64,000 bases of DNA from Antedon mediterranea. Its lineage: Eukaryota > Echinodermata > Crinoidea > Comatulida > Antedonidae. A program made the position numbers and the translations under genes. The stretch lies in the NCBI RefSeq assembly GCF_964355755.1, contig NC_092671.1, positions 19,494,001-19,558,000 on the forward strand, in the 5' to 3' direction. Under the pieces are notes generated by a model, which saw only the letters and a program-made list of their open reading frames with translations, was not told the origin of the DNA and ran no database searches. The stretch's first letter is position 1; each line of letters begins with the position of its first letter. Below are positions 12,801 through 63,593 of the stretch, piece after piece.

Positions 12801-15800
12801 ATATCGATACACGTAGGCCTATATACTGTTGCTAATCTTTGATTTGTAAGATTAAGACATCATCATTATGTTCACTAATTCGAGTAAATCGGTTATCATC
12901 GAATGTAATTCTTTGTGTTTGATGCGATTAAGTACAAGTACATTCAGATGTACAGGCTGTACATCTGAATGTGCTTGTACTTAATCGCAGGTATTTCTTT
13001 TGTTTCATATATTTCAATTAAAAAACCAAACAAAAAATTCCTCGGAATTTATTACGTTTACGATTAAGTTCCCTCAGCCCCGTGTGTTTATCTGTAACAG
13101 TAGGTCTACTTGCATGTGTCCTCCAATATGCCTATATTAGACATTTGTTTTCCTAAATTATGCTAAAACACGTCTCAAGACACAGCAATAGGTTCATCAA
13201 ACTTCTTTTACATTTAGCTTAATTTAGTTTGCTTATCATGCAATTACGAAGTAATAATCATTTAAGTCAATCCCTAACGTATTTCTTTTCATCATGAAAA
13301 AATAATATATTAGGATTCAGAATTGAAATTTAATTTATACAATTTCTTGTCTTTTCGCTTCATTAGATTTTATTATTATTCAACGACAATGACTGACGCT
13401 TGTCGTCACAGTTAGAAGTCAACGAGTAGGCAGGATTAGTACATTGTATAGGCCTACAATAGTAAAAATTACCAATTAATTGTCTTCTTGTCTAAGTATG
13501 CTAGTGTTGCCAGCCAACTATACGGGTTATCTTAGTATGCTAGTGCTGCCAGCCAGCTACACGGGTTATCTAAGTATGCTAGTGTTGCCAGCCAGCTACA
13601 CGGGTTATCTAAGTATGCTAGTGCTGCCAGCCAGCTACACGGGTTATCTAAGTATGCTAGTGCTGCCAGCCAGCTACACGGGTTATCTAAGTATGCTAGT
13701 GTTGCCAGCCAGCTACACGGGTTATCTAAGTATGCTAGTGTTGCCAGCCAGCTACACGGGTTATCTAAGTATGCTAGTGCTGCCAGCCAGCTACACGGGT
13801 TATCTAAGTATGCTAGTGTTGCCAGCCAGCTACATGGGTTATCTAAGTGTGCTAGTGTTGCCAGCCAGCTACACGGGTTATCTAAGTATGCTAGTGTTGC
13901 CAGCCAGCTACACGGGTTATCTAAGTATGCTAGTGTTGCCAGCCAGCTACACGGGTTATCTAAGTATGCTAGGTTTGCTGTTGACAGTATATCATTTTAT
14001 CTTTGCAAATTTAAAGATCTTTGAAAAGATAATTCTAAATAATTGTGGGTTACACTTTAGGGACTGAGAAATAAGAAAGTTTATTAGTTTAAGTATTGTA
14101 TTGATTTCCACTATAATTAAACATTAAGTATATGCATTTTTGTGGAACGGGTTGAAATTTGCTTGTTAACAGTTTTGAGTATAGTCCTCAGTAATTTAGT
14201 TCTAGGTCCATTTCCTTCACAACTCGTGTCACTACCTACGTGATTAATCCCGGATGGATGTATGAGTCAAATATTGGTATCGTCAACTAGAATCAAACAA
14301 GCAAACTAAATTGTTGTGATGGGTCTACGAGATAATTTAAACCTATGTGTGATTAAAATAGATAATAAATTGTAGGACTTGGCTGACCCTTTCGGTAAAC
14401 GGTTATTACATTATCTTCAAACCTAGCTTTTTAATCCACGCATATGTTTTAATTAGATTACTATTTATTTCACATCACAGCACGAATAATCAATTTATGT
14501 ATAGAATAAATTAAGATAAATGACAACATTGCAACATATATGTTGTAATAATGTAGATTATGCACGAAGGGATAATATTAAGCGTAGGTCTGGGAATATA
14601 CAGTTGCATGAACTTTTGAGTTCCTATCGGGACCAAGTCTGATTAGTTACAACGCATGCGCATCGCGTACACATCCGATTAGTGGGTGAACTCAGGGGAA
14701 TGTCATTATTCGATACTGCTTTTAAAAACACAAGAGTGTACCAGCTTTCCTATGACAAATAATCTCATTATTCTGGTTTATTTACACGCATCTAGAAATA
14801 ACCGTAAATGATCTTGGCCTGTGGCAGGATTTGTCACATAAGTAACCTTGTCACTAGGAGGGCCATCTGTGCGGAAAAAGGGGATCGAAGCATTTAAGTG
14901 TGAATCGATCGGCAGCAAGTACTTCGCATTACTTCAATTATGTGAAAACAATATCGCTCCATATCAAATCCATGTCAATACAGTACATATTCTCACCTAC
15001 ATATTTAGTTTCGCCAATAAGATAGTTTGGTATTAAAATGTAATGTTATTTCAGTGCAATATGTAGTTATATGTTGAATATGTTTTATCCTCTTTACAGA
15101 ATGGGCATTATATACAACTCCTTTCTACAATGACAGTACATCACGTGATCCAATGTTGATTCGGTATGTTCCGAATGAAATACCCGAGTCACCTGCTAAT
15201 AGGAAGGGTACTCATGTCCTAGCGTCACCTGTTCTTATGTACGTCATCATTGGAGGAGCTGCAGTAGTATCATTAATCTTCATTGTTATTGTAATCTTCG
15301 TTTTACAAAACTTCAAATGCGGTGCATACGGCTCTTACAGGTGAGGATAGGACTAGTATTAGGAGAATTGCTGGCTTCTTTTACCCATGTAATTTGGGAC
15401 ACGCGCTAGAAGACGGTTAATTTCGATGGAAGCTTAAGCTCTATTTACACTATCAAACTAGTTTGACAAAAATATGTGATGTGTTCAAATATGGTAGTGA
15501 TATGCCCACACATAGTAGTGATATGACATCATCATGTCCATATATGGGCACATCACATTTTTTTGGTCATATATAGTTTGATAGTGTAGACAAGGCTTAG
15601 GTCGAGTATAATGGTCTGGATCTGTCAAATCCACAACACTTTAATGCCATATCCATTTGGAGTCTCTCAGATCTGGCTTGGTAATCCCTTAAAAAATGCG
15701 GGAGGGATTTCTTCAATCCACAACACTAATGTCTATGCCCTCTTTAAATAAATGAGAGTCTCAAAGGTCAGGGTTTCAACAGAAAGCGTTTAAAATAAAA

Positions 15801-29300: not shown

Positions 29301-32300
29301 CATTTTTATTATAATTTCAGAATGATGGAAGAGTTTAAAAACAAAGATGATGAAATAAAGAAAGTTTCAAGTGAAAAGAAAGAAGTACAGAAAGAGTTAG
29401 AAGCTGTAAATGCCAAGTAAGTATGGACAAGTTTATTTTTGTAACAAATTTGAATAGTAATAGAGCTACACTGTTATTTATCAACTTAACCCTATATTTT
29501 TGATTTGGTAATTGTTCAACACTTCAAAGATTTTTATTTTTTAGAATGACGGAAAAGTTTAAAAACAAAGATGAGGAAATAAAAAAGATGTCAAATGAAA
29601 AGAAAAAACTACAGAAAGAGTTGGAAGCTGTAAATGTCAAGTAAGTTGTAAAACATTTTAATAACTAGAAAGCCACTCCGAGAGGGCATACCTCCGCCTA
29701 CTGTAAAATTCTCCTACATAAGATTTCTCCGGTAAAAAAAAATATATATATATATTTGTGTGTGTCTTAATGCTATTTGTGATTTAGGCTAATTTCATTA
29801 CAAGCATGTGTATGCGCGAGTTTGGTGTAATGGTTATGTAACAAGCCTTTCAAATAACAATAGCTTCAGTCGACTAACAATAGAACAGCAACGCGAAAAT
29901 CAAACGAGTGAATTTGAAAAGAAATAGGTTTTTTAAACTACTCGCATCAAAAAACGTGCACATTGAATCAAATTATGTTTTAAAATTACAAATCACAAAT
30001 TATAACTCTTGCCTCTTGTTCAAAAATGAAGTTTTTTGGACAAGTAGTTCTTGAGAAAATGCAATTTCAGTTTACTTGTTACTTTAAGACTGCTCGCCGG
30101 CTTTTGAAAAATTCTGTCCTATCTTTTAACACTAGTAGGTCTAAAAAAGTATACTAAAAAGTGGTCCAGAATTGGGACTGTGGTCCCAAATGGTCCCAAA
30201 ATTTAATGGAATGGTCCTTGACCACATATCTATATGTCTATTCATTTTGGTAAAGATCTTGTAATTACTTTTTGAGTAATCCTGCTAACAAACAAACAAA
30301 CAAACAAACAAACACACGCTACCGATTACATATACCTCCTTGGCGGAGGTAAATAATGTAGTTACAATAACCATTTATTAAGCTAAGATAATATGGCAAC
30401 ACATCCAAAATTGTTATTATAATTTCAGAATGATGGAACATTCTACAAACAAAGATGATGAAATAAAGAAAGTGTCAAGTGCAAAGAAAGAAGTACAGAA
30501 AGAGTTAGATGCTGTAAATGCCAAGTAAGTATTGGAAATTTTATATAGTAAAAACTTTTACAGTTATTTATTAGGTTAACCCTTTTTGTTATTTGATACA
30601 TTTCTAACACATTTAAACATATTTATTATAATTCCAGAATGATGGAAAAAGATGAAGAAGTAAAGAAACTGTCCAGTGAAAAGAAAGATTTACAAAAAGA
30701 GTTGGAATGTCTAGAAGCTGTAAATGCTAAGTAAATATTGAAAAGTGTATAACTTTTAATACTAGGAGCTACAGTAACTATCTACTATGCTAATGCAATT
30801 TTCAACACATCTAACATTATGCTAACTTGCCAATTCAGTCTGAATGAGAAATATTGCCAACAGAGCAAAGAGAAGAAAGAAATTGAAGAGCTTGTAGAAG
30901 AGTTAAATAAAAAAAATGAGCAGTTGAAGAAAGTTTTGAAAAAAAGAACAGAATTACTTAATGCTACAAACACTAAGTAAGTATAATGTTTATATTGACA
31001 AAGTTAACCCCATGTTGTGATAATTCACCACATTCAGCATGAAAATAATTTGTTAGCTAAATCAATTGATACCATTCAATCAAAGGTATTTATTGATCAT
31101 ATCATTATTATAACTTTATTGTCCCTATTTATCGTCATGATTATCTTCAACACCAACAATTTCATTATTTTTTTTTTATCACAGTCATTATCAACAACAT
31201 TCAATAATAATCATTATAATATACAAAAATGTGCTTGACACCTTTTTCTCAAAATACTTTGAAATTACAATTACATGTTGTTACATGCACATTTTTTCTT
31301 CAAGTAAAAATCTTATAACTTATTAAAATGTAATTCCAACAGATATGAAAGTAAATATAAGGAAGCAAAAGAGCAACTCAATGAAGCTAAAAAGATGTTG
31401 AAAAGTAACCAACGCACAAATAGTGCAAGAAAACAAAGGTAAGTGTAGGTCCTCACAATGATAATCAAGGTAGTTATGTTTGTCCAATATTGAATTTAAA
31501 AATTATATTTATGATAACTAATTTTGAAAAAAAAAATATATAGATAACATGCAAAGGAAACTAGAATAAAAATAATTTCTCAATAATTTCAAGCTACTGT
31601 AATTCAAATTAATTATTCAGATATTATCAATTTTTTAGATGTCTTGATTGCAATCAAAAAGAAAGAGAATTAGAAAATCTGAACAAACTTTTAAAGAATA
31701 AAGAGAATAAGGTTATGGAATTGGTTCAAAGGTAGGAGTATCTTATATCACTAAAATTAAACCCATGGGATTCTTTTTAAGACTGATGAGAATGCTATTG
31801 CATGGCTCAAGTGTTATAAATAAAAGAGTCTCCTCATTAACAGATAGTTTTATATTGTAATAACTTAGATAAGCAGGCAATATATTAACTGAAATTTCTG
31901 TAAACACAATAGTAAATTATTTAATTCTTTACACAAAAAAATATAGAATTCAGCTACCCGCCCAAGCAGATTCAAATCAAGGAAAAAACAAGACAGATGT
32001 ATTGCTGAGTCTTCTGCCAACCGTAAACTTGATAAACCAGAAGGATCTAAAACCAGTCAACGAAACGAAAACACCAGTGGTCATTGGTCAAGGCGCTTTT
32101 GGAGAAGTGTCTCTAATGAGATACAATCTGACCAACTCATTGGTTGCTGTCAAAACCATCTTAGATGGCAGTGCAGATAGCATAAACCTAGAGGCTCGCA
32201 CAATGCAACTATGTTCGGCTCACCCATCATTTCCGTTCATGTTTGGCGTAGTAAGAGATGATAATAACACCATATCAAAAATTGTCTCTTCATTTATTGG

Positions 32301-32715
32301 AGTTGACAGTTTATCTCTTACGCTTAGAACAGCTATAAGCAAAAAATTCGCTAACATGGACAAGAGGTCAATTCTTAACATCTTATTGACTGTCTCAGAT
32401 GGTGTGAAATTCCTCCACCAGAACAACATAGTACATAACGATATAAAAGCAGAAAACATTCTACTTTCACATGAAAGTGAAGAATGGATGGGCAAGATTA
32501 TTGACATGGGTGGAATAACATCACCACTTGTGGAACCAACTGCTGCTGAAGTAACATCAAGCGACATCTTCGCCCTCTGCTTTGTTATGTGTGAAGTAGC
32601 TGAGGCATGCCACTGGCAGCAACTAAACGAGTTGGCCGTGAGATGCAAGAAAACTCGACCACCGATTGGTGATCTCATCTCTCTTCTATCCAACCTTATT
32701 TCTGATAGAATTTAA
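26268..32715 (+). CDS. Coiled-coil protein with C-terminal kinase-like domain, tandem-duplicated exons
   Basis: Nineteen exons: 26268-26317, 26785-26941, 27056-27153 (donor uncertain), 27637-27741, 27839-27934, 28064-28159, 28276-28371, 28489-28584, 28693-28788, 28917-29012, 29112-29207, 29321-29416, 29545-29640, 30429-30524, 30638-30730, 30839-30976, 31343-31438, 31639-31731 and 31947-32715. All joints are in phase, mostly phase 2. The product is about 852 residues: a unique N-terminus (1-69), a Lys/Glu-rich coiled coil (about 70-596) of which eleven units of 31-32 residues (137-487) are near copies, then a kinase-like domain (about 640-852). I do not recognise an orthologue. The coiled coil should oligomerise; the kinase may signal or act as a pseudokinase. 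No signal peptide or membrane segment is seen, so it is probably intracellular. Confidence 0.85.
26330..26740. repeat. Dense cluster of AGGCCTA words in intron 1
   Basis: About 400 bases in which AGGCCTA, TAGGCCTAGG and close variants recur more than ten times on both strands. The same palindromic word is scattered over the whole window, but this is by far its densest occurrence. Confidence 0.7.
26785..26941 (+). CDS. Kinase gene exon 2 (unique N-terminal region)
   Basis: A 157-nt exon, acceptor ACTGTAG and donor AACAAG|GTGGGC, phase 2 in and phase 0 out. It includes FDPQLNTTGMNLLRKKP and NIVDPGDLVFMRTMKGNK. I recognise no domain. Confidence 0.75.
27056..27153 (+). CDS. Kinase gene exon 3 (start of coiled coil; 3' end uncertain)
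   Basis: Acceptor AATTTCAG, phase 0 in. It reads IMGTFLCQVEATLDHERNDK and on into a Glu/Lys-rich helix. The phase-correct donor available is GAAAA|GTATGA at 27153. The sequence stays coding-like for about 33 nt more (YEKDKNRKEQT) but has no GT donor there, so the true end may differ. Confidence 0.6.
27253..27590. mobile_element. Harbinger-like MITE with perfect 52-bp inverted ends
   Basis: A 338-bp element with perfect terminal inverted repeats of about 52 bp beginning TGCACTTGTCAATTG, flanked on both sides by TTA. A three-base TTA duplication is typical of PIF/Harbinger elements. The interior carries about eight TGACGCAC words in both orientations. It sits in intron 3 of the kinase gene. 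Perfect ends indicate a recent insertion. It has no transposase. Confidence 0.88.
27637..27741 (+). CDS. Kinase gene exon 4 (coiled coil)
   Basis: A 105-nt exon, acceptor TTTATAG and donor AACA|GTAAGT, phase 2 to phase 2. It reads KASERLLKEFKKRNGELKKV and ends ATNKQ. It precedes the repeated exon block and ends with a motif like the repeats (ATNK against AVNAK), so it may be a diverged ancestor of the unit. Confidence 0.82.
27839..30730 (+). CDS. Eleven tandem phase-2 exons encoding a 32-residue coiled-coil unit
   Basis: Eleven exons (ten of 96 nt, the last of 93 nt), all entering and leaving in phase 2, so any number can be added or skipped without breaking the frame. The unit is like MMEEFKNKDDEIKKVS followed by SEKKEVQKELEAVNAK. 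Three sub-types recur by their first residues: MMEHS (exons at 28064, 28489, 29112, 30429), MMEEF (28276, 28693, 29321) and MTEKF (28917, 29545). The introns are also copies: they share stretches such as ACAGTTATTTATTGGGCTAA, so whole exon-intron units were duplicated. Exons 28693 and 28917 are almost identical to 29321 and 29545, showing block duplication. The last unit (30638) has lost the middle of the motif and gained ECLEAV. Confidence 0.9.
29660..30353. mobile_element. Inserted dispersed repeat in one duplicated intron
   Basis: About 690 bases absent from the sister introns lie between TAATAACTAGAAAGCCACTC and TTGGCGGAGGTAAATAAT. It contains a short TA run, a CAAA repeat tract and inverted end words (ACCTCCGCC near the left, GGCGGAGGT at the right). 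The sister intron after 29012 continues straight through the insertion point. Class uncertain; no coding sequence. Confidence 0.75.
30839..31731 (+). CDS. Kinase gene exons 16-18 (non-repeated coiled coil)
   Basis: Exons 30839-30976, 31343-31438 and 31639-31731, all phase 2 to phase 2. They encode Lys/Glu-rich helix (EKKEIEELVEELNKKNEQLK; KYKEAKEQLNEAKKMLK; ELENLNKLLKNKENKVMELV). The third begins CLDCNQKE, the only CxxC of the coiled coil. They link the repeated block to the kinase domain. Confidence 0.85.
31947..32715 (+). CDS. Kinase gene final exon: compact kinase-like domain
   Basis: Acceptor AATATAG, phase 2 in, stop TAA at 32713-32715. Motifs in order, in the 852-residue numbering: glycine loop GQGAFGEV (about 644-651), AVK with the beta-3 lysine (about 666), an alpha-C glutamate in NLEART, HNDIKAENIL with catalytic Asp about 762 in place of HRD, DMG in place of DFG (Asp about 783), and SDIFALCFVMCEV, equivalent to the alpha-F helix. 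All residues for ATP and metal binding are present, so it may be active. The activation segment is short and without APE, and the C-lobe is clipped between alpha-F and the final helix. HND-type kinases occur as lineage-specific TKL-like families in marine invertebrates; that placement is inference. Confidence 0.88.
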
Positions 32716-36081: not shown

Positions 36082-36195
36082 CTAACAATCAATATCGTCA
36101 GACTGTGTAATGGCATTCAAGTCTTTCATGAGTCCTTCAAGATTCAACATTTCAGCATTCAAATCTTCTGTGCTAAATGTTCTTGCTGTCCCCGA
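36082..36195 (-). CDS. Neogenin-like final exon with P3 motif
   Basis: The 114-nt coding part ends in TAG (36082-36084). It contains LNAEMLNLEGLMKDLNAIT. LEGLMKDLNAIT is identical to the P3 helix at the C-terminus of vertebrate neogenin, which in DCC drives receptor self-association and binds FAK. This motif gives the family identity. The vertebrate proteins end right after it; this one adds QSDDIDC. Confidence 0.95.
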   Translation of the reverse strand, partial: SGTARTFSTEDLNAEMLNLEGLMKDLNAITQSDDIDC

Positions 36196-51100: not shown

Positions 51101-54100
51101 CTTGTTGCGGATGTTGAAGACAACGTCTGGACCATCACCTCCATTCGGCGGCTTATTGTACCTAATAAACAAAAATGTCATCAAAGTTTAAAAAACAAAT
51201 ATTGGCAATCATTGGCGAAGATACATAATTTATCAAAAATGTGTGTGTAATTTTGTAAGTAGGATTTTTTTTTCAGCATGCAGAAGGAATCTTGTTATCA
51301 TAACATTAGCCTTTTGTATCATAAATATACTGAATACTGAATTGCTTTATTTGTCAATATCATAATAAAATATAAAAATTCTAGATTGGCAAAAAATAAC
51401 TACTGTATATAAGTTTATATACATTCCTATTCACCATGAAAGTTCCATACAGTAAAACCCCTATGTTTGAATACCACTCATTATGGGGATATGTTATGAG
51501 TAGGTAGGTGTTTGGATACCACTCATTATGGGGATATGTTATGAGTAGGTAGGTGTTTGGATACCACTCATTATGGGGATATGTTATGAGTAGGTAGGTG
51601 TTTGGATACCACTCATTATGGGGATATGTTATGAGTAGGTAGGTGTTTGGATACCACTCATTATGGGGATATGTTATGAGTAGGTAGTGTTTGGATACCA
51701 CTCATTATGGGGATATGTTATGAGTAGGTAGTGTTTGGATACCACTCATTATGGGGATATGTTATGAGTAGGTAGGTGTTTGGATACCACTCATTATGGG
51801 GATATGTTATGAGTAGGTGGTGTTTGGATACCACTCATTATGGGGATATGTTATGAGTAGGTAGGTGTTTGGATACCACTCATTATGGGGATATGTTATG
51901 AGTAGGTAGGTGTTTGGATACCACTCATTATGGGGATATGTTATGAGTAGGTAGGTGTTTGGATACCACTCATTATGGGGATATGTTATGAGTAGGTGGT
52001 GTTTGGATACCACTCATTATGGGGATATGTTATGAGTAGGTAGTGTTTGGATACCACTCATTATGGGGATATGTTATGAGTAGGTAGGTGTTTGGATACC
52101 ACTCATATGGGGATATGTTATGAGTAGGTAGGTGTTTGGATACCACTCATTATGGGGATATGTTATGAGTAGGTGGTGTTTGGATACCACTCATTATGGG
52201 GATATGTTATGAGTAGGTAGGTGTTTGGATACCACTCATTATGGGGATATGTTATGAGTAGGTAGGTGTTTGGATACCACTCATTATGGGGATATGTTAT
52301 GAGTAGGTAGGTGTTTGGATACCACTCATTATGGGGATATGTTATGAGTAGGTAGGTGTTTGGATACCACTCATTATGGGGATATGTTATGAGTAGGTAG
52401 GTGTTTGGATACCACTCATTATGGGGATATGTTATGAGTAGGTAGGTGTTTGGATACCACTCATTATGGGGATATGTTATGAGTAGGTAGGTGTTTTAAG
52501 TATTTACAGTTGGTCTTGACGGTGTCCTATTTATATGGGCTCTACTGTCCCTGAAATCAAGCATTTGATAATTGTAAAATGTATTTCAAAAGCTCTGTCT
52601 ACGCTATCAAACTTTATGTGACAAAAAAATGTGATGTGCACATATATGGACACGATGTTGTCATTTCACTACCATATTTGGGCATATCACTACCATATTT
52701 GGGCATATCCCTGCCATATTTGGGCACATCATACTATTTTTGTCAAACTAGTTTGATGGTGTAGACAGAGCTCAAAATACTGCTGGTGCATAAAAGGGTA
52801 TTGGAAACTTTGTTATGTCATTGTAATTTCTAAATAGGGATTTAAGATACATGGTTTTACTTACATAACTTTTGTCATTCCTTTATCTTCTACAAAACAA
52901 CAACATGGACAACAAGCAGCCCAGCAAGATCGACATCCTGCGCCGCATGCTGCAAAGCACGGGCACAGATCAGCACAACACACGCAGCATCCACATGCAA
53001 TGCAGAGTATTAGGAGAATTGCCAATAGCAATATCAGGAAGGCTATGCCAATAATTAAGAACCATAACCAGCGTGGAATTGTTGCTTCTTCTACAATAGG
53101 CAATAAAGTTGCTTTGATAGCTACGGTCTCAGCTAAAAAATTGTAATAAAAAAAAAAAAAAATATGACATCCAGATTACCTGATTGCAATTAAATAAAAG
53201 ATTAGGTTACTATTACAATCAAATGTGAAGGCCACATAAATATAAAATTGATAGAATATACCTTAACTTAATTTTACTTGTTTGCTACCGATGAAACAAA
53301 AACTCACATATGCATGTATGTTATTATTTTTAGTAAATGTACTTCCTGATCTATCTTGTGCTATTTATTAAATAGAGGTGCTATTTATTAAATAGAGGTG
53401 GTAAGGTAATTTTTTAGAATAATGATCTTTAAACAAATTAAATAATACTTACCTCCAGTACCTGTTGATGGAATTGTTGTTTGTTTGTTAGTTGAAACAA
53501 ATATAACATCAGTCTTAGACGGCACATAGCAAGCTTAAAAAAAACCCAAATGAATTGCACAAAATATTATTAAATACAAAAAAAAAAAAAAAATAATGTT
53601 TGCATTAAAAATACATTTGTTATTTCATAATATAAAAACTCTTGTGATTAGAAATAGAAATGTTTAAAAAAGGGAGGTTTTACTAAAATGATTAATTCAC
53701 GTTAAAAAAAAGACAATTTTTTTATACCAAATGTCAGGCTATATTTATATTTGCTGTATTTGATTTATTATCAACAGCAGCAAGATATTTGTACTGAATC
53801 AATTTTAATTTACTTTAACTTTCATCTGGATTTTTTTTTCAGACTAAGCGAAAGAAAGGTAGGCCCGGACTGATTAACGTTATATTTCTTTTGTTATTGA
53901 TTTTTGGTGGAGTTGGTAGCGGTTGAGGTACATTGGATGAACTTGAATTTATCATATGAATCAGGTAGGTGAAAAGCAATGTTTTCAATATTTTTTTTAA
54001 AACAAAAAAATTTAAATGATTTAAAACATTTTAAATTACAAACCTGGGGTTGTTTCACTAATCTCAAGAGACAGTGGACCATCTCCTTTCCTATTTTCTG

Positions 54101-57100
54101 CTAGAATCATAAAGTAGTACTGAGTATTGCAGTCCAATCCACGGATTGAGGTGGTAATCTCATTGCCATCAACAGACATTTTTGTCCACCGACTTAGCCG
54201 TAATTCATTATTAGTAGAATAGTACACTTTATAGCCTAAAAAAATATACACTCACATATTTAATATGTTGTAAGCTTGAATCATGTCATGTAGGAAAGTG
54301 CTCGATGCTGAGCAAAGCAGAATAAAGATAAATAGTCAAAGACGCTAGTTACATAACTAGCGTCTTTGACTATATTTATAAGTATATACATATTTATATA
54401 TTAGTTTAATTTTTTTCTTCAAGCAGCTCGTCAATTACAGAATGGATAAACTATTTTATAATTATTTTATTTTTTTATTTTATTGTGCTTATAGTCTTAT
54501 TTGAGGCTTTTAAAGTGGAGTTGAAAGAGTCATAAGCTACAACCCTGGCACAGGTCAGGATTGAAACCATGGCCATTCACACATTACAGTATATTTATTA
54601 TGGCTAAACCTAAGCCTGGTTTTGTTTCCAAAGTTGGTGGTGTTTGAAAAAAAAGGTAAACATCAAAGTATTTTCTTTATTTAAATATACTTTGAACAAT
54701 ACATTATTTGGTTTTCTATCCAATTTTGGGTCAAAGTGAATGATTAATATGACATTAAAGTTACCTACAGTAAAGGAAAACAATGAAAAACAGTACCTGT
54801 TATATAGCCATTAGGTTCTGTAGGAGGCATCCAATTGAGGTAAACTATTGACGATGAATTGGCATCAAGCACAACTTTGATGTCTGTAGGCGGTGACGTT
54901 GGTACTAAAATAAAGAGCAAAAGTGATACCAACAGCCTTGTAGTAGAACCATATTATGCAATGGACTATCTACTTCAACACCATTTTAACATTAATACTT
55001 ATACAGCGCATATTTCTATAAGCTCAGCGGCACTTCACTTACTCTCATAACATTGAACACTACTACTGTATATTTGATAAACAGTGGTGGTTTCTGGATA
55101 GAAATTTACATTTTTAATATATTCTTGTGTGGATAGTAGATTTGATAGTGGATTTGTTCATAAACACTTAAAGTTAAACTAACACTGGTTGTTTTGTGAT
55201 GTGTGGTGTGTATATGTATTACAACAAACCTTTTAGTGTAATTTTATGAATATTTAGTCGATTTAATCTTGAATGAATTTACTTATAAGAAGGTTAAGGC
55301 ACATACTCAATATTGATTAATTAATTGAACTAGTTTAATAAATTGTTTTATCACCATTACAATTACTTTGCTATAGTAACACTTTAATGAATTAATATCA
55401 TTCACGCTGATTTCACATTAGCAACCATGCTATTACACTGTGCTTTAACAGTCACCTCAAATTATTTAACAGATAAACTGGTCTAGTTTGCCAACTTATC
55501 AAATTTAGTAAGTCAAATAATGTATCAACACATAAACTGAGAACCAATCATTTAGAACACTTGTCAATAATGTGAATTTTAACAGATAAATAATGCTAAT
55601 GCAATTCAATTTCCATTAAAACTTAAATTTTGAATATCTCAAGTTACATATAATACATCTGGCCTATATAAATGTTTTAACATCAATCAAACTTTAGGAC
55701 TTCTCAAAATGAGTCATAAAGCAACATTTAGGACTGGCTAACCTCAGCGACAACTAACCCCTTTTGAATATGTGTATTCGTCAGCAGGGGTGGCGCCAGG
55801 ATCTTCCCGACGCGGGGGCTACATTCCCCAACGAGGGGGCTATGCGAGCATCACAAGGCTGGGTGCCAGGGGGCCGCCAAGGGCCACCGGTGGGGGTCCA
55901 GGGGGCGAAGCCCCCGGAAGCAACGCGTTCTAGCGTCATTTGAGGTCATTTTAATCAGATTTAGGGTAGCCATTTTTTCCATTTTTTATAATGCATAATG
56001 CTCCCAAGTGTATGCCTGCGTACCATCTGGACTTCCGGGTGGTGAGAAATTCATGACATACACAGGACATTGAAAATGTAATAACTTAGCTATAATAAGA
56101 TGTTGGCTAAGCGAAAATGGCATGTTTTTTTGTTTAGTAATGGATGAAATATTTATTTTAGGTGCCCCACGGTACAGAAGGTTACTTGTAAATTAAAAAA
56201 TTGGTGAACATACGAACAATTAACATAATTCGTTTTTGCTGTAGTGTATAGCGTACGTCGACACAGTACACGACGTAACCGTCGGTAAACTTCGCCTGGA
56301 AAATAACTACAGTACACATTTTGGTCCCTGGATGGAACTTGATATCACGCGTCTCGACCCAACGTTGAACGATTCGTACAAAGAGATACCGCCAGACAAG
56401 TGCGTACCTAGCTAATGTTTAGTAGTAAGTTAGATCGCTGGCAATAATGAATGCATATAAATTGCATAATAGCACTCTGACGTACTCTCAATGTCAATGA
56501 AACGTCGCGGTTTTCTAGGCGCTGAAGCTACCAAGTGAACGCGAACGTTTTTTACTGTATATTATATTCCCCGACAAAAAGTACCCGTGTTCCCTTCGGT
56601 AACCGTCGGTAAACTTCGCCTGGAAAATAACTACATTACACATGTTGGTCCCTGGATGGAACATGATATCACGCGTCTCGACCCAACGGTGAACGATTCG
56701 TACAAAGGGATACCGCCAAACAAGTGCGTACTAGCTATTGTTTAGTAGTTAGATCTCTGGCAATAATGAATGCATAAAAGTGCATAATAGCCCTCTGACG
56801 TACTCTCACGGTCAATGGAACGTCGTGGTTTTCTAGGCGCTGAAGCTATATGAAGTGAACGCGAACGTTTTTTACTGTATATTATATTCCCCGACAAAAA
56901 GTACCCGTGTTCCCCGACGGAGGGGCTAGGCTCCCCGACGAGGGGGCTAGAGCCCCCGTAGCGCCCCCCGCTGGCGCCACCACTGTTCGTCAGCAGTTAT
57001 TTGACATTAAACGAGAATCAATAATGCTCCAACTTATCGTAAAACATATTCCAATCTTAAAAAATAAAAGGGTGGGCTTATGTTATTCTTGCGTGACATG

Positions 57101-60100
57101 AAGATGCTGTATAGAAATCTAGGAACATACAGTTTACCTAGCTGCACCAGTCAGTCGAAAATCATATAAAAAAAAAAGTCCAGTTTATGGAATACTGTAT
57201 TGGTTTGGCTGTTACTACTTCATAGAAGAACTTTTTATTAAAAGAGAAGAATTTACAAGTACAATAAACGTTTTTAGAGCCTAAAGAATAATTATACCCA
57301 TGATGAGTTTATGTCTAACTTTAACATTTCTACTTATTTAATTTTTTTTTCCAATTCGTATTTTACATCAAAAAAACCTCCTAATTTTACTTTAGATTTA
57401 AAATATAATTTCTTAGTCTTTCTGTTATGAAACATAGCTAACTGTGCCAATTGAGGAAATCATTTTCATTATTTGTCCTAGAAGTTTAAAAAAAATAAAT
57501 ATTACAGTTATTACAAAATAGACTACAAATCTTATACGTCGATATAAGACAGTAGGATATTTTAATAATTTCATGTCAAATATTGTAAAATTTATAGTGT
57601 CGTACATGTAGTCCCCTCCTCACACACAATTTGATTTACAATACAATTGGCACCAAAAGAAGCAGCTTGTTAAATAAATTTGGTTACCAATCGTAGTTTG
57701 CCAAAGCTGTAGTTGTCCTAAGGGGTAGTTGTAGGCCTACATGGGGCAGTTTTCCTAGGGGGTAGTTGTCCTAGTAGGTAGCTAGAGGGTAGTTGTCCTA
57801 GGGGGTAATTGTCCTAGGGAGCAGTTGTCCTAGGGGTTAGTTGTCCTAGAGGGTAGTTGTCTTTAGGGGGTAATTGCCCTAGCGGGTAGTTGTCCTAAGA
57901 GGGTAGTTGACCCCTGGCTAACATCAGTCATAGAAGACCCTTTAGGATTTTCTAACATGAGTCTTATAGAGCAACATTTAGGACTGGCTAACCTCAGCCT
58001 CCTGTGCTAACATCAGTCATAGAACACCCGTTTAGGATTTTACATATGCAAATACAGTATTCATCTTATGGTTTGTATTTTTTCTATTCTTCTACCAGAT
58101 GATTTAGTTACCAGAAATATAGGATTGGTAAGTACTACAAAGAAAGTGTAATGTAATGAAATGAAGCTAGATAGAATGAATGTACACTGTCACTCACCTT
58201 CCACAAACAAATGACATCAATTAATTTGTATGTACATTAGAAACTGACTTACATGCATCTTTGGTCTTGGCTGAAGTCTCTATACTAAATTCACTTGATA
58301 TCCTGCCATCACTTGCTTTCACATCGAATATATATGTAGTGAATGGTTTAAGATTAACAACTTGTTGAGAAAAGGATGATGTATTAATGAACATGTAACT
58401 AATAAAAGAAAACAAATGACAAATATCAAAATATGAATATCAAATATTAATGATGGCAATTATGAACATTTAATGATGATGATCACAATAATAGAAATGA
58501 CAAAAATAATGAGACGATGAAGGTAATGAGAATGCTTTGATGAAGGAGATAACAATGATGATATGATGAAAGTGATGACTATGATGATACGATGAAGGTG
58601 TAACAATAAGGATACAATGAAAGTGATGACAATGATGATACAATCAAGGTGATAACAATGATGATACAATAAAGGTATTGAAAATGATTATACGATGAAG
58701 GTGTAACAATGAGGATACAATGAAGGTGATGAAAAATATGATATGATGAAGGTGATGACAATGATGAAGATAATGACAATAATATGATGAAGGTGATGAC
58801 AATGATGAGATGATGAAGGTGATGACAATGATGAGGTGACGAAGGTGATGACAATGATGTGATGAAGGTGATGACAATGATATGATAAAGGTGATATAAT
58901 GTTGATACGATGAAGGTGATGACAATGATGATACAATAAAGGTGAGGATAATGATGATATGAAAGGTGATGACAATGATATGATAAAGGTGATGACAATG
59001 ATACGATGAAGGTGATAAAATGTTGATACGATGAAGATGATGACAATGATGATACGATGAAGGGGATGACAATGAGGATATGATGAAGGTAATAACAATG
59101 ATACAATAAAGGTGATGACATGACGAAGTTGATGACAATGATGATATGATAAATGGGATGACAATGATGATACAATGAAGGTGATGACAATGATGATATG
59201 ATGAAGTTGATTATAATGATGATACAATGAATTGAATGACAATGATATGATAAAGGTGTCAACAATGATGATACAATAAAGGTGATGACAATGATGATAA
59301 AATGAAGGTGATGACAATGAAGATACAATGAAGGTGATGACAATGATGATACAATGAAGGTGAAGACAGTGATGGTATGATTAAAGTGATGACAATGATG
59401 ATACAATGAAGGTGATGACATTAATGTTGATGTTTATTGTATAACTGTTATAGTTTTCAAATGTTGTTTATTCTTATTTTAACCTGACCATTCAAAACAT
59501 GCGCAAGTCCTGCAATTGGTAGCCAAGGATCTTAGGTTACAACTATATAACCCCACTCTATGCCATTGAACATGACCATTTGAAAACAGAAAGATATTAT
59601 CATACTTACCGTGAAGATGAGAAGTTTGCTTTATATCTGAGTGTGTACTTGTAGCTACTTTCACCATTCCATTTCACCATTATAATTGAATCTGAAATTG
59701 CTTGAGCCTCTACTTTTAGTGGAGGGGTCAATATAGGCGTATCTGTTGCTATAGTTACAGAATAATCATGATAAACGTTATTATCACATAAATTATACAA
59801 ATATCTAGTCAAGTTCTTTAGTATGGTATTTAAATTTGTGTGACAATATAAATAAATTTCATAAATCAATGTTTAAACAATGAAGTTAGAATCTAAATTT
59901 GTAATTGTTTTTGTTTCGCTCTACTATAATTACATGTAATTTATTAGAATGAAATAAATTAGTTATTAACATGCAGTTTACAAAAAAGGTTTATTATCAT
60001 TAAATGATATATAAAATAAGCAATGGCCTACTGGATGTAAAAACCCAAGTTGAAAAGTATGTAAAATCTTGATGTAAACATAATATAATACCAAACAAAA

Positions 60101-63100
60101 TAATGATAAAGCAATTTGAAATTACAACTGAAATTAATGCATTGTTTGGTAATGTGGTTTAGGTTAAATAAAATTGGGGGCAGCAAGTATTTTTAAAAGA
60201 ATAGAATACTGTATTCTGTCATTGATGTTTTTTGATATGCTGTAGAATGGTGAAGAAATATAAAAGACATAAATAGAATATTATTGGATACAATTTACAC
60301 ATACATGACAAACAATGATTTAAAATTGAAATAAGAAGAGACAAAACAACAAAATACAGTTACAATTACCTTACTTATCTAATACTGTAATATCAACAGA
60401 ATAAGCCAGTTAAAATAAGTAATAGAATCTAATATGTTGAAGGAAATATTGATTGAATGTCAACCCTCAGTATTATTGTTAGAACACCTGAAAATACCTG
60501 AAAATACTAATAACTAAAATTCCTAAAACTAGATTAAATACACAGATATACCTTGCTAAATTAATCTATTTTTCACACACAATAATCTTTAGGCAAGAGA
60601 ATAAAGGATTGTTGGCCGTTGAAAGTGTTAGCTTTTACTATATTTGCTTACTTATTGGAATCATGGGCAAACTCCAAGAGCATGTTTCTACTGAAAACTC
60701 CAAAAAGAGCAGGTTCCTTTTGAAAATCTGGTTCTGGTAGTAATGATGATCACTTTGCAGCTTAATTTTTAATTTTTAATAAAACAAAACGGATTGTCTC
60801 AGTGGTACCTTAATGGATGTTATAGTACCCATAAACACTGGAAGTGAAACCGAGTTAGGTAATGGTGTGTTGTGATCATGTGAATGTTTGAAACGGTAGC
60901 ATCCTGATGTTGCAGGGCCGGTGGAACGAGTTTGAAATATATAAATGTTTTTTTGGGAGTGTGTAATGTTTTTAATTAATCTACTCTCCACCAAAGCGCA
61001 ACCATGGTTTGGACTAAAATGAGAACATTTTAGGAATAGTAGACATGTAAATGACCTAAAATCGTACTTATTAAAAGTATTCCGACTGGTTGGGATAAAA
61101 TTGATAATTAAAAATAAGCATGCGGCACGCACTATGGTTGGGGCTGGGGTGTGTAAATTTTAGGAATATGGACATGTAAATGCTTTTTGGGAGTGTACCA
61201 TTAATTGTTTTAACCTAATCTATTTCCACCTCAGTCCCAACCATGGTTGGGGCCATCTGAATGAACACAGATTGGTGACGCTTAAAAAAGAATAATCATT
61301 TTTAATGTTGACGCATTAATTTTCAGCTGCCAGGGAAACTAACTAAATTTAACAATATTGTTGATTTACTCAGAAAATTACATTCCTAATATGGCGATTT
61401 AGGCTACCTTTCTTATTCTCAGGTCAGAAAAAATGTCTCTACTTTACCCTTTATATTTTCTAATATTTGTTTTCTTATCTTAAAAAAAATGTCCTTGTTT
61501 CTGCCAGCGTTGTGTTGGGTGTTTAATTTTACTTGGTCACTGAAAAATGCTAAATAATAATAACACTCTACCAGAAAAAAGGCTAATAGCATCTATTTGT
61601 GGTGGCATATACAATATGTATACGCCGTTGTAAGCCTATAGTATTCCAAATGAACAAAACTTATCTTATGACAAAGTAAAATATCAATATTCAACGTAGT
61701 ACAGTAAGACATGCAGTTCTAAAATCTAGGGATTTTGGTGTAAAAGATATAAAAAATGAATAAATACTAATAAAAGTGCACGTTTTGAAAAGTAAAATAA
61801 AAATTGAAAATGATTATTTAGTATTAAATGATTGGTGAACATTTAACTAAAACATGTTGTCAAACCTTCTAAAAAAATTTATTAAAAAAATAAAAAAAAT
61901 TGGGAAAGGTGCCTATAATCCATGCGTTAACGAAGAGAATGTGACAAAAACATGCGTCCTAGGGATATTTGGATGTGTATTTTAATAAAGATCAGAATTG
62001 TTACAGTTTCAATAAGTTAAAAAAATGTTTTTAAGAAATGATTTATATAATTGGGTTTCCTTTAATTTTATAAATGAAAGGGTTTTATGGGTAACTACAA
62101 ATATTTAAATACAGTAGAACACTTCCTGTGAGACATTTATATCTAGGGGACACTTTGTTGGGTCCTGAAGGACGTGTCACTTGCTGTGAGACATTTATAT
62201 CTAGGGGACACTTTGTTGGGTCCTGAAGGACGTGTCCCATTAATAAGGGTTCTACTGTAGGCTTAATAATAACACTAAAACAATCTAATCTACACAAATA
62301 AAAAATCTTCATCTATAATAATCAATAATAAAAAGTGTAAAATAAAGAACTTGAGCTAAAAAATGCATTAAAAAAATAAATAAAAAGAATTTCTCTAGGT
62401 TCAACATTTCAAGGCGTGCATTTTTGTTTCTGAGCTAGGCATTAAACAAGTATGCCGTAAACATTTACTCCATGCCCATTCTGATGAAAATGACTCACGT
62501 TTATTTGGAACACCACAATCTACAGTTCTGGATACAAGACAAGCTTCAGGTCTATTACAATCCTCCTCTGTTTTTGTCCACGAACCACGCGAGCCTGCAA
62601 CCTCCTTTCCTTTCGCATCGAAACACCAACAGTCATTTTGGTCATAGCATTGTAGAGCTTTAAAATCTCCATTGTCGCAGCAACGTGGAAAGAAGGTGGC
62701 ATTTTTGGGAAGGGACTGGAGCCAATTGTAACACATACAAGCTGATGAGAAGATACAGGAACAAGGAAAAGATAAAAACCACAATTGACTATGAAAAGCA
62801 TGTGAATGCTGCAAATCTCAGAGCCAAGAGATATGACAAGCAAGTTAGGAAATCCAAGCGGGACAGAGCTGTCGGATAAGTTCACACCAGTTATAGAACT
62901 ATGGATGAGGCAAAGCTATGGAAAAGAGTGATGGGATGATGTGCTGAACCTATTATAGCCCAATGGCTTGTACCATATTAGCTAAAATGTGCAAGATTAA
63001 GGGAGGTTATTAAAGATTATGTGCTCAAACAAGGAAAAATAAGTTATTAAAAACAAACCACCGCACTTAGTGTGTGTTAGAAACCAGAAAGAAAATTAAT

Positions 63101-63593
63101 TAAAAGAAATAGTAGATATAAAAACATCTTATCTAATATCAGCATTAAAAATCAAGAGTTACTTAAGATACTAAATGAATAAAAATAAAATTATTTATAG
63201 CTACTACCGATTTATTTAGATTTGTAACTAAAAGTTTCTTATTCAGAAAAACAAAAATAATCCTGAATGAACTAAATAATTAATACAAACACACTTTCGC
63301 AATGCTAACTAAACTACAAGCCTATTATAATATACACGTTACTCACGACAACATCACTATACAAATCACAAATAAATTAAAACAAAACAGATAAATCCAT
63401 ATAACACAAACAAGAGAATTAATGTTCCAATGAAGATAATAGTAAACAAAATATAATAATGTTCAACAGACTCCTCAAAACAATGAATAGTAAGGAATAA
63501 ACAAAAACAGGTAATACTTGGCAACATGCCAACCGGTCTTACATGTATCTGCAATGTCACTCGATTCTTGGACCCCAGAGGTACTGACTGTTG
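36082..63593 (-). CDS. NEO1: Neogenin/DCC-like netrin/RGM receptor, 5' part outside window
   Basis: Twenty-one exons on the - strand: 63543-63593, 62499-62741, 59610-59748, 58253-58398, 54797-54904, 54044-54235, 53453-53533, 52865-53132, 51064-51161, 50036-50074, 48939-49037, 47391-47465, 44684-44737, 43993-44154, 41861-42316, 40317-40982, 39933-40067, 39434-39607, 37381-37536, 36448-36587 and 36082-36195. Every junction is in phase. About 1198 residues: linker, thyroglobulin type-1 domain, two FN3 domains matching FN3-5 and FN3-6 of neogenin, stalk, membrane helix, cysteine-rich juxtamembrane segment, a tail of about 830 residues (vertebrate tails are about 330), and a conserved C-terminal P3 motif. 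DCC, neogenin, Frazzled and UNC-40 are guidance receptors for netrin and RGM. The four Ig and first four FN3 domains should lie to the right of the window. Confidence 0.9.
36448..36587 (-). CDS. Neogenin-like exon: proline segment before P3
   Basis: A 140-nt exon, phase 1 in and phase 0 out. It reads SYSLLKRQQPAVNRNRSHPL and PVVTPRAPDV. The PVV-P-AP-(D/E)V pattern matches the segment that precedes P3 in vertebrate neogenin. Confidence 0.9.
37381..37536 (-). CDS. Neogenin-like exon: P2-like proline-rich segment
   Basis: A 156-nt exon, phase 1 to phase 1. It contains THPLSSFSVPGPPPHYGTLP and SPPAQPR, which line up with the HPL-SFAVP-PPPGPP segment of neogenin. Proline-rich and likely to bind SH3 or related adaptors. 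Confidence 0.9.
38850..39045 (+). mobile_element. Possible non-LTR retrotransposon 3' fragment
   Basis: Short frames read RMPRHRLPYQDYKQDF and, in a neighbouring frame, RWKDQIPKDTSL. This resembles the conserved tail after the reverse transcriptase of many LINE elements (RM..RLP...GRP..RWKD.I). Frameshifted and short, so tentative. Confidence 0.4.
39072..39425. repeat. Degenerate ~39-bp tandem repeat built on ATGCAAGAGC
   Basis: Eight or so diverged units of about 36-42 bases, each starting with a version of ATGCAAGAGCTTTTCC and followed by a TCA-rich end. A single unit also occurs at about 38758. The array ends just before the exon at 39434. Confidence 0.75.
39434..39607 (-). CDS. Neogenin-like tail exon (basic/aromatic)
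   Basis: A 174-nt exon, phase 1 to phase 1, acceptor TTCTTAG and donor AATAG|GTACAT. It includes EIVPRKRTLSNSHRWKKDWR and ends FFIEHEYNEI. It has a basic RKRTLS phosphorylation-like site and a YNEI motif. No equivalent in vertebrate neogenin that I can name. Confidence 0.85.
39921..40239. promoter_or_regulatory. Cluster of six ATGCAAAT octamers
   Basis: Perfect POU/Oct octamers ATGCAAAT at 39921, 40103, 40122, 40165, 40199 and 40232. Five are in the 249-bp intron between tail exons 40317-40982 and 39933-40067; one lies a few bases beyond the left edge of the latter. It could be an intronic enhancer or a worn tandem repeat. Confidence 0.5.
39933..40067 (-). CDS. Neogenin-like tail exon
   Basis: A 135-nt exon, phase 1 to phase 1, donor CCAG|GTAAAT. 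It reads SHSGDHFMSSYRRSESNEPT and ends LLDEPVDLP. Polar and probably disordered. Confidence 0.85.
40317..40982 (-). CDS. Neogenin-like large tail exon
   Basis: A 666-nt exon, phase 1 to phase 1, acceptor GATTACAG and donor CAAA|GTATGT. It encodes 222 polar, Ser/Pro-rich residues with several basic-Ser sites (GRSMGDLSMKSHG; KARSFAHIAG). Low-complexity disordered tail; no domain recognised. Confidence 0.88.
41861..42316 (-). CDS. Neogenin-like tail exon, Ser/Thr-rich
   Basis: A 456-nt exon, phase 1 to phase 1. Serine/threonine-rich (TSSHISNGSAKTEFVPLQAL at the start, GLATPQLALPG at the end). No recognised domain. Confidence 0.88.
43993..44154 (-). CDS. Neogenin-like tail exon, Tyr/Pro-rich
   Basis: A 162-nt exon, phase 1 to phase 1. 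It contains PSFPSPYPVCYPPSSGYGSL, several tyrosines next to prolines, suited to SH2, SH3 or WW binding. Acceptor CTTTAG, donor ACAG|GTACAC. Confidence 0.85.
44684..44737 (-). CDS. Neogenin-like 54-nt micro-exon
   Basis: Phase 1 to phase 1, acceptor ATTTTAG and donor CATG|GTAAAT. It encodes DGHMRGGAGHTGTWSSSH. Support is the perfect phase and both splice sites. Confidence 0.75.
45530..45775. repeat. Degenerate tandem repeat with GGTCCCTGGGAAAGTA words
   Basis: Diverged units of about 26 bases (GGTCCCTGGGAAAGTA, GGTCTCTGGAAAATTT and similar) organised in a larger period of roughly 115-125 bases. Intronic. Confidence 0.75.
47391..47465 (-). CDS. Neogenin-like tail exon, Ser/Tyr-rich
   Basis: A 75-nt exon, phase 1 to phase 1. 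It reads EKGNKYAGSTSSYVSSSYYS and ends SSMES. Acceptor TTGATAG, donor TCAG|GTATTC. Confidence 0.78.
47690..48780. repeat. ~38-bp minisatellite, about 28 degenerate copies
   Basis: Units like AAAGATGTTGATGAGCTTAG followed by GAATCAAAGACCAACAT, with many indels and substitutions. It fills most of the intron between the exons at 48939 and 47391. Degeneracy shows it is older than the 45-bp array at 51.5 kb. Confidence 0.92.
48939..49037 (-). CDS. Neogenin-like tail exon
   Basis: A 99-nt exon, phase 1 to phase 1, acceptor AACCAG and donor TCAG|GTAGGA. It reads GALESAYSGMLLNGGIKCSK and ends SDQATLSS. Confidence 0.82.
49463..49486. repeat. Perfect 24-bp palindrome
   Basis: TTTAATAGGAAA followed directly by its reverse complement, in an intron of the neogenin-like gene. 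Confidence 0.85.
50036..50074 (-). CDS. Neogenin-like 39-nt micro-exon
   Basis: Phase 1 to phase 1, encoding EIDESAFIASETK between acceptor TATCAG and donor AAAG|GTAAGT. It is short, but both splice sites are good and the phase fits its neighbours. Confidence 0.72.
50461..50640. mobile_element. TIR element of the TAGAACCCCT family, copy 1
   Basis: Left end ACTAGAACCCCTCCTTTGGG, right end TAATAGGGGTTATACTGTAC; the ends are near inverted repeats. The interior contains GGGACAC and GTGTCC words. Related copies are at 62110-62262 and around the minisatellite at 51449-52549. Confidence 0.65.
51064..51161 (-). CDS. Neogenin-like exon: possible diverged P1 segment
   Basis: A 98-nt exon, phase 2 in and phase 1 out. 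It reads MYNKPPNGGDGPDVVFNIRN and then KPLGEMLPLRGDT. By position it is where neogenin has its P1 motif (PPDLWIHHERLELK); the shared spacing of PD-hydrophobic-I is suggestive but weak. P1 is the netrin-signalling contact in DCC. Confidence 0.85.
51449..52549. repeat. 45-bp minisatellite (about 23 copies) nested in a TIR element
   Basis: From 51464 to 52495, units of 44-45 bp with TTTGGATACCACTCATTATG followed by GGGATATGTTATGAGTA, almost identical, with short variants (GGTGGTGTTT or GGTAGTGTTT at the junction). Flanks are ACAGTAAAACCCCT on the left and GGGCTCTACTGT on the right, ends typical of the nearby TIR family. In the intron between the membrane exon and the exon at 51064. Confidence 0.95.
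52591..52772. mobile_element. Short TIR element (MITE), copy B
   Basis: Inverted ends AGCTCTGTCTACGCTATCAA (left) and a mirror with GTGTAGACAGAGCT (right). The interior has three ACCATATTTGGGCATAT-like repeats. Same family as 15437-15597. Confidence 0.78.
52865..53132 (-). CDS. Neogenin-like exon: membrane helix and cysteine-rich juxtamembrane segment
   Basis: A 268-nt exon, phase 1 in and phase 2 out, acceptor TTTTAG and donor TTAT|GTAAGT. IPRWLWFLIIGIAFLILLLA and on to ILLIL is a clear membrane helix. It is followed at once by a stretch of about 40 residues with some 17 cysteines (CIACGCCVCCADLCPCFAAC onward to CCPCCCF) and then VEDKGMTKV. Vertebrate DCC and neogenin have a basic segment here. 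Clustered juxtamembrane cysteines are usually palmitoylated, as in angulin/LSR tight-junction proteins. Confidence 0.93.
53453..53533 (-). CDS. Neogenin-like exon: extracellular stalk
   Basis: An 81-nt exon, phase 1 to phase 1, between FN3-6 and the membrane. It reads ACYVPSKTDVIFVSTNKQTT and ends IPSTGTG. Thr/Ser-rich linker with one cysteine. Confidence 0.85.
54044..54235 (-). CDS. Neogenin-like exon: second half of FN3-6
   Basis: A 192-nt exon, phase 1 to phase 1. GYKVYYSTNNE, then LDCNTQYYFMILAENRKGDGP, lines up with GYIIYYSTD and the YYFKIQARNSKGMGP segment of neogenin FN3-6. Together with 54797-54904 it makes a complete FN3 fold. Confidence 0.93.
54332..54373. repeat. Perfect 20-bp inverted repeat
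   Basis: Arms ATAGTCAAAGACGCTAGTTA and its exact reverse complement, separated by two bases (CA), in the intron splitting FN3-6. Confidence 0.93.
54797..54904 (-). CDS. Neogenin-like exon: first half of FN3-6
   Basis: A 108-nt exon, phase 1 to phase 1. It reads PTSPPTDIKVV, then IVYLNWMPPTEPNGYIT, matching PTSPPKDVTVV and VNWQPPSEANGKIT of neogenin FN3-6, with the core strand-B tryptophan. Confidence 0.93.
55785..56985. mobile_element. Non-autonomous hAT-type element with 8-bp target duplication
   Basis: A 1201-bp element with ends CAGGGGTGGCGCCAG and CTGGCGCCACCACTG, flanked on each side by the identical octamer TTCGTCAG (55777-55784 and 56986-56993). An 8-bp duplication and CAGGGG-type ends are the hAT signature. 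The interior holds two direct copies of about 320 bp starting ACCGTCGGTAAACTTCGCCT at about 56278 and 56600. Ends are GC-rich. No transposase frame. Confidence 0.9.
57712..57915. repeat. ~15-bp tandem repeat GGGTAGTTGTCCTAG
   Basis: About twelve imperfect copies of a 14-16 base unit. To its right, at about 57945-58010, a stretch containing AGGACTGGCTAACCTCAG repeats one at 55690-55755. Confidence 0.85.
58253..58398 (-). CDS. Neogenin-like exon: second half of FN3-5
   Basis: A 146-nt exon, phase 2 in and phase 1 out. VVNLKPFTTYIFDVKASDGR matches the tyrosine-corner segment (LVTGLKPNTLYEFSV) of neogenin FN3-5. With 59610-59748 it completes the domain. Confidence 0.92.
58470..59435. repeat. ~26-bp minisatellite GATGAAGGTGATGACAATGATGATAC
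   Basis: More than thirty degenerate copies of a 20-29 base unit (GATGAAGGTGATGACAATGA and similar), almost lacking cytosine outside the fixed ATGACAATG. The complementary strand gives long His/Ser/Ile frames that are artefacts. It lies in the intron splitting FN3-5. Confidence 0.93.
59610..59748 (-). CDS. Neogenin-like exon: first half of FN3-5
   Basis: A 139-nt exon, phase 1 in and phase 2 out, donor CACG|GTAAGT. TPPLKVEAQAISDSIIMVKW, then YKYTLRYKANFSSS, matches the start of neogenin FN3-5 (core Trp, then YTVRWKTN). Confidence 0.92.
60940..61260. repeat. Imperfect direct repeat around CAACCATGGTT
   Basis: Two related segments, roughly 60940-61060 and 61130-61260, share GGACATGTAAATG, TTTTTGGGAGTGT and the CAACCATGGTT palindrome. 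Probably a decayed dispersed repeat in the intron between the thyroglobulin and FN3-5 exons. Confidence 0.55.
62110..62262. mobile_element. TIR element of the TAGAACCCCT family, copy 2, with internal duplication
   Basis: Ends ACAGTAGAACACTTCC and GGGTTCTACTGTAG. Inside, a unit of about 57 bases (GTGAGACATTTATATCTAGG and following, to GGACGTGTC) is present twice in tandem, almost identical. Confidence 0.75.
62499..62741 (-). CDS. Neogenin-like exon: thyroglobulin type-1 domain
   Basis: A 243-nt exon (81 codons), phase 1 to phase 1, acceptor CATCAG and donor AAAC|GTGAGT. It has the thyroglobulin type-1 pattern: CYNWLQSLPKNATFFPRC, then GDFKALQCYDQNDCWCFDAK and GS-WTKTEEDC. The hallmark QC and CWC boxes are present. 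It then has EACLVSRTVDCGVPNK before FN3-5. In DCC/neogenin this place is the FN3-4/FN3-5 linker, which is alternatively spliced in vertebrates and changes netrin binding. Thyroglobulin type-1 domains often bind or inhibit cysteine proteases. Confidence 0.92.
62745..62945 (+). pseudogene. Coding-like remnant, unidentified
   Basis: On the + strand, a basic frame reads KTTIDYEKHVNAANLRAKRY and then DKQVRKSKRDRA, followed after stops by MDEAKLWKRVMG. Composition differs from the surrounding AT-rich intron. Probably a fragment of a mobile or processed sequence; I do not recognise it. Confidence 0.3.
63543..63593 (-). CDS. Neogenin-like 51-nt linker exon
   Basis: Phase 1 to phase 1, between acceptor TTGCTTAG and donor ACAT|GTAAGA. 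It reads TVSTSGVQESSDIADT and joins the thyroglobulin exon through a serine codon. It is probably part of the linker following FN3-4. First exon of the gene visible in the window. Confidence 0.72.

Follow-up and report, generated by a model that had tools for sequence, protein, structure and literature searches.

Receptors of the DCC/neogenin family, Frazzled and UNC-40 among them, carry Ig domains followed by six FN3 domains, one membrane span and a C-terminal P3 motif, and their length varies at the linker between FN3-4 and FN3-5. In the portions of PMC5563286 cited here, the linker of DCC is given as 8 or 28 residues through splicing, and the vertebrate DCC-netrin contacts are described as FN3-4 with the LN domain, FN3-5 with EGF3 and FN3-5/FN3-6 with EGF1-EGF2. 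The same portions report that deletion of the linker abolished cell binding of netrin, that about 19 residues restored it and that their sequence was irrelevant; in a second assay, DCC without residues 819-838 bound netrin less, yet still bound. According to the cited parts of PMC4930329, the long and short forms of mouse DCC arise from a 60-bp choice in exon 17, which is controlled by NOVA, and are functionally distinct, and human DCC is also spliced at this linker. An earlier structural study, as cited in these parts, found comparable affinities and different conformations for the long and short forms.

We analysed a window of 64,000 nucleotides from the crinoid Antedon mediterranea together with 50 kb of upstream DNA starting 1 kb inside the end of the window (49 kb beyond it), 113 kb in total. 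The gene described here shares with the DCC/neogenin family the domain order and the variable length at the FN3-4/FN3-5 linker, and with the long/short splicing of vertebrate DCC the placing of extra residues between FN3-4 and FN3-5. In vertebrate DCC, these are 60 bp (20 residues) within exon 17, whereas here they are whole symmetric exons, one of which encodes a predicted folded domain, thyroglobulin type-1 (Tg1).

Identification of the Receptor Gene

The gene is a DCC/neogenin (netrin/RGM) receptor gene. The upstream DNA contains, on the same (minus) strand as the Tg1 exon, Ig1, the second half of Ig2, Ig3, Ig4 and FN3-1 to FN3-4, in the order known from DCC. The Ig search detected Ig1, the second half of Ig2, Ig3 (as two halves) and Ig4, and the joined Ig pieces gave DCC chains 3laf and 5z5k as the best PDB matches, covering the region from the Ig2 half to Ig4. 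Neither splice scores nor an Ig pattern revealed an exon for the first half of Ig2. Between the Ig1 and Ig2 exons, beyond the window, there is a 597-residue reverse transcriptase-like frame (91259-93049, minus strand), which looks LINE-like by eye.

All six FN3 domains are present in order, as in DCC and neogenin. Based on Pfam annotation, fn3 was above the cut-off for FN3-2 and FN3-4, and the second halves of FN3-1 and FN3-3 were slightly below it (24.1 and 23.5 versus 25); the first half of FN3-1 had no Pfam match, and that of FN3-3 was recognised by eye only. The FN3-4 exon lies beyond the window (66547-66257, minus strand) and ends with a phase-1 donor, GTAAGTGT, at 66257. The remaining exons are on the minus strand of the window. 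FN3-5 is divided between an exon at 59610..59748, which enters in phase 1, leaves in phase 2 and has no Pfam match alone, and an exon at 58253..58398, whose fn3 match is under the cut-off on its own. The two halves of FN3-6 (54797..54904 and 54044..54235) were identified by Pfam, the join and the PDB search. In the spliced product, Pfam finds three fn3 stretches across FN3-4 to FN3-6. When FN3-4 to FN3-6 were joined without the two extra exons of the linker, the best PDB match was neogenin 7ndg (E 1.6e-53), followed by more neogenin chains and then by DCC. The earlier note on this DNA had assigned the Tg1 exon to the FN3-4/FN3-5 linker; this placement is right, since FN3-4 with its phase-1 donor and the other domains in DCC order lie upstream on the same strand.

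Further downstream, a hydrophobic stretch read by eye marks the exon for the membrane span and the Cys-rich juxtamembrane region (52865..53090, minus strand). The extent of this exon is somewhat doubtful, as there are acceptor-like sites inside it. Immediately past the membrane span, 16 of 42 residues in its open frame are Cys, which may form a palmitoylation cluster. The last exon (36082..36195, minus strand) carries the P3 motif and the stop codon. Its Neogenin_C match (42.2 bits against a cut-off of 25, E 1.2e-10) is the only one reported in the genome, and DCC P3 chains in PDB match it as well (3pzd, E 1e-4), so that the P3 motif named in the earlier note is confirmed by both profile and PDB sequence matches. 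The receptor gene is apparently single-copy in the genome.

The Thyroglobulin Type-1 Exon

A Tg1 domain is encoded in a phase 1-1 exon of 243 nt (81 codons) at 62499..62741 on the minus strand, as established by the profile search, the join and a search of the genome DNA. The acceptor TCTTCTCATCAG precedes 62741 and the donor GTGAGTCA follows 62499, both on the minus strand, and these signals are of ordinary strength, within the range of the other exons of the same gene. The coordinates, phase and splice sites agree with those previously proposed.

The Pfam Thyroglobulin_1 profile (PF00086) matches 62581..62715 of the minus strand, corresponding to profile positions 16-61 of 67. When all 354 Mb of the genome were searched, the exon scored 45.2 bits (E 2.1e-9) against the curated Pfam cut-off of 20.6 bits, which bears out the domain assignment of the earlier note. 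It ranks 28th among the 45 PF00086 matches listed genome-wide and is the sole one on its contig (C2) among the matches listed. Taken by itself, the open frame scored 42.7 bits, and within the spliced product the score was 39.7 bits. A phmmer search of PDB with the exon found 14 distinct sequences. At the top were thyroglobulin, saxiphilin and the p41 invariant-chain fragment, the last with E 3.2e-6.

The canonical Tg1 pattern consists of six core Cys with QC and CWC. Both motifs and all six Cys can be read from the translation (their disulfides are predicted), as can four Cys beyond the canonical six and an N-A-T glycosylation sequon in the loop ahead of the second core Cys. The exon thus shares the Pfam family and the CWC core with thyroglobulin, saxiphilin, p41 invariant chain and EpCAM, which, unlike the product of this gene, are not netrin receptors. 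A single-sequence AlphaFold model of the exon by itself was poor (mean pLDDT 47.7) and offers no fold evidence.

Reading Frame and Exon Joins

A second exon may be present in the linker. It is a candidate of 51 nt (63543..63593, minus strand; phase 1-1, 17 codons) rich in Ser, Thr, Asp and Glu, which was recognised by its splice signals and frame and could be due to chance. Once joined, the exons of FN3-4, the 51-nt candidate, Tg1, FN3-5, FN3-6 and the membrane span can be read through in a single open frame. Joins were built in full, without Tg1 and without both extra exons, and every one stays open; it follows from the phases that Tg1 without the 51-nt exon is also in frame. Both extra exons being symmetric, the skipped forms keep the frame. 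The two joins that had been predicted are therefore in frame, 62499-59748 leading from Tg1 to FN3-5 and 63543-62741 running through the 51-nt candidate, and in-frame skipping of Tg1, as had been supposed, is possible by phase.

In the 6.5-kb interval between FN3-4 and FN3-5, the 51-nt and Tg1 exons were the only open phase 1-1 cassettes on the gene strand that passed the thresholds, and the opposite strand had none. Over all 113 kb, there were 5 such cassettes on the gene strand (including these two) and 10 on the opposite one. It should be noted that the scan used home-made splice weights, and its thresholds were chosen with both exons already seen. At the antisense rate, chance alone would give about 0.6 phase 1-1 cassettes per 6.5 kb. 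The 51-nt exon on its own could thus be fortuitous, and it is the domain that makes chance an inadequate explanation for the Tg1 exon. Pfam matches above the cut-off were absent from nine further open frames of the interval, two of which had weak matches below it; on the plus strand, this check covered frames up to 64000. The 50 kb of upstream DNA contains zero N.

Comparison with the Vertebrate Linker

When both extra exons are omitted, the receptor can be aligned with DCC chain 4plo over the linker with a gap of a single residue. We take 4plo for the short DCC form because the 20 extra residues are absent from it. As the linker without the extra exons has the length found in 4plo, the insert lies at the site of vertebrate long/short DCC splicing, which supports what the earlier note had claimed. 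We infer that the intron holding the Tg1 exon is the exact homologue of the vertebrate intron. By analogy, the addition of 17 residues here would mimic the long DCC form. Among the DCC/neogenin chains aligned across the linker (7ndg, 4plo and 4pln) and the gene examined here, only the latter has the 81-codon Tg1 exon.

The introns were also searched for clusters of YCAY, the NOVA-type motif. Six YCAY occur within 45 nt at 62939 (minus strand), 198 nt upstream of the Tg1 exon, and another six within 45 nt at 64202 (minus strand, just past the window), in the intron preceding that of 62939. In mononucleotide shuffles, the P values of these clusters in the two introns before Tg1 were 0.005 (62939) and 0.010 (64202), with 17 introns tested. 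Comparable clusters number nine on the gene strand of the 113 kb. Given the number of introns tested and of clusters in the 113 kb, those ahead of the Tg1 exon are a lead, and they may at best be regarded as weak candidates for NOVA sites. In the FN3-5 intron, a region at 59418-58479 (minus strand) is, by eye, a simple tandem repeat with long overlapping frames and extreme YCAY density.

Age and Origin of the Exon

The DNA of the Tg1 exon matches the genome once, namely itself. Among the alignments of the exon with the 44 other Tg1 loci listed, the one with the highest score had 24 of 60 residues identical (40%, locus L024), and the top identity among the local alignments was 17 of 36 (47%, locus L015). 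Judged by its sequence, the exon is intact and is not a recent copy. It is divergent, yet its open frame, CWC core and splice signals have been kept, which is best explained, from this one genome, by selection following an old insertion.

The other Tg1 exons of the genome look like phase 1-1 cassettes too. The best donor was in phase 1 in 40 of the 43 loci having a donor and the best acceptor in 33 of 44, counts that come from home-made splice weights, include some weak scores and treat clustered copies, which are not independent. Phase 1-1 Tg1 exons would have what exon shuffling into a phase-1 intron requires. Clusters of Tg1 matches were seen at C10:5890920-5897414 (six), C11:2046375-2048449 (five) and C1:25265045-25277082 (ten), where multi-Tg1 proteins are possibly encoded.

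Ligand Binding

RGM binds DCC/neogenin receptors at FN3-5/FN3-6. An RGM_N match was found in the genome by profile search, which makes RGM a second possible ligand of this receptor. The Tg1 insertion would leave the RGM site on FN3-5/FN3-6 intact. For netrin, four of the DCC ladder residues of FN3-5 were placed by alignment spacing, with R865 left out and the numbering taken from the cited portions of PMC5563286. In this placement, R884 and Y895 are conserved, M921 is replaced by K and W931 by F. By this alignment, FN3-5 is diverged, and since two of the four placed ladder positions are altered, netrin binding by FN3-5 is not assured.

Other Genes

Two other coding regions were noted in the window. 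A MEGF/PEAR1-like gene lies at 8453-15341 on the plus strand and includes an uninterrupted EGF-repeat frame of 1062 residues (9053-12238; EGF_laminin E 3.1e-51); a hydrophobic stretch seen by eye at 15078-15341 (plus strand) may be its membrane span. A protein kinase domain (PF00069, E 1.3e-20) is encoded in a 280-residue open frame at 31873-32712 on the plus strand. Two tektin exons were also compared with PDB chains. One, tektin-4-like, had 8snb, a sea urchin structure, as by far its best match (290.6 bits, next chain 155.9), and the other scored lower with 8snb (121.1) than with tektin-3 of 7rro (207.7). Searches for mitochondrial COX1 and for GFP found no match, a result that is uninformative about the animal.

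Proposed Role of the Exon and Alternative Explanations

Based on the above results, we suggest with moderate confidence that the FN3-4/FN3-5 linker of a DCC/neogenin gene acquired a Tg1 exon of phase 1-1, which is probably an optional cassette and would shift the geometry of netrin binding. By analogy with vertebrate DCC, the exon would most likely act as an optional rigid spacer altering the co-binding of netrin by FN3-4 and FN3-5. The exon is presumably spliced into at least some of the receptor mRNAs. In the form with Tg1, a compact disulfide-bonded domain, plus at most 17 linker residues, would separate FN3-4 from FN3-5, so that FN3-4 would have a different reach and geometry with respect to FN3-5/FN3-6. 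Skipping of the exon would bring back the short linker. Consequently, the spacer may change the way in which FN3-4 and FN3-5/FN3-6 share one netrin, or cluster several. It is also possible, as a tentative extension, that the linker is a four-state selector of length and shape, in which the 17-residue and 81-codon Tg1 cassettes are used singly, together or not at all, Tg1 separating FN3-4 from FN3-5 or exposing a protease-controlled hinge; the netrin geometries of one gene would then replace the vertebrate DCC/neogenin paralogues.

The ordinary splice signals of the Tg1 exon, which resemble those of the gene's other exons, would also fit an exon that is always included, that is, a fixed extra domain of the receptor in this lineage, with constant spacing and no splicing switch. 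The YCAY clusters, being a lead and not an established regulatory element, leave room for this. However, the exon occupies the site of alternative splicing in vertebrates, and the symmetry of the two additional exons means that their skipping would preserve the frame; we therefore consider constant inclusion, the main rival of an optional spacer, rather unlikely. The 44 other Tg1 matches listed in the genome bring in another explanation, according to which the exon is outside the receptor, as an exon of a nested gene, a dead remnant or an assembly error. This is very improbable, since the exon is on the same strand as the receptor, its phase fits on both sides and no other listed Tg1 match is on the contig. 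In addition, the nine other frames of the interval have no Pfam match above the cut-off, the exon has kept its open frame and splice signals although it has diverged, and the upstream 50 kb is without any N.

The domain could also control shedding of the receptor, either by inhibiting extracellular cysteine proteases or metalloproteases in the manner of a thyropin or by serving as bait for them. To our knowledge, many Tg1 domains have no known inhibitor activity, and the N-A-T sequon before the second core Cys could block the inhibitory contact, which makes such a role improbable. It does find some basis in the match of the exon to the p41 invariant-chain fragment (E 3.2e-6, phmmer), which inhibits cathepsin L. 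A long bare linker is, moreover, thought to be prone to cleavage in the cited portions of PMC5563286. In our opinion, an optional spacer agrees best with the symmetric exon and with its position in the linker.

A DCC/neogenin or other netrin receptor with a Tg1 domain was not found in the literature, to which this search was confined, metazoan protein databases being outside its scope. DCC/neogenin is a highly conserved guidance receptor, and as far as we know, its domain order is the same from worms to people. If the proposed role as an optional spacer is true, a folded domain added to this linker, the only one with a known influence of length on netrin binding, would offer a natural experiment on how the geometry of the linker determines the netrin response. 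It would also mean that evolution tunes, by the gain of an exon, the very spot that vertebrates tune via alternative splicing.
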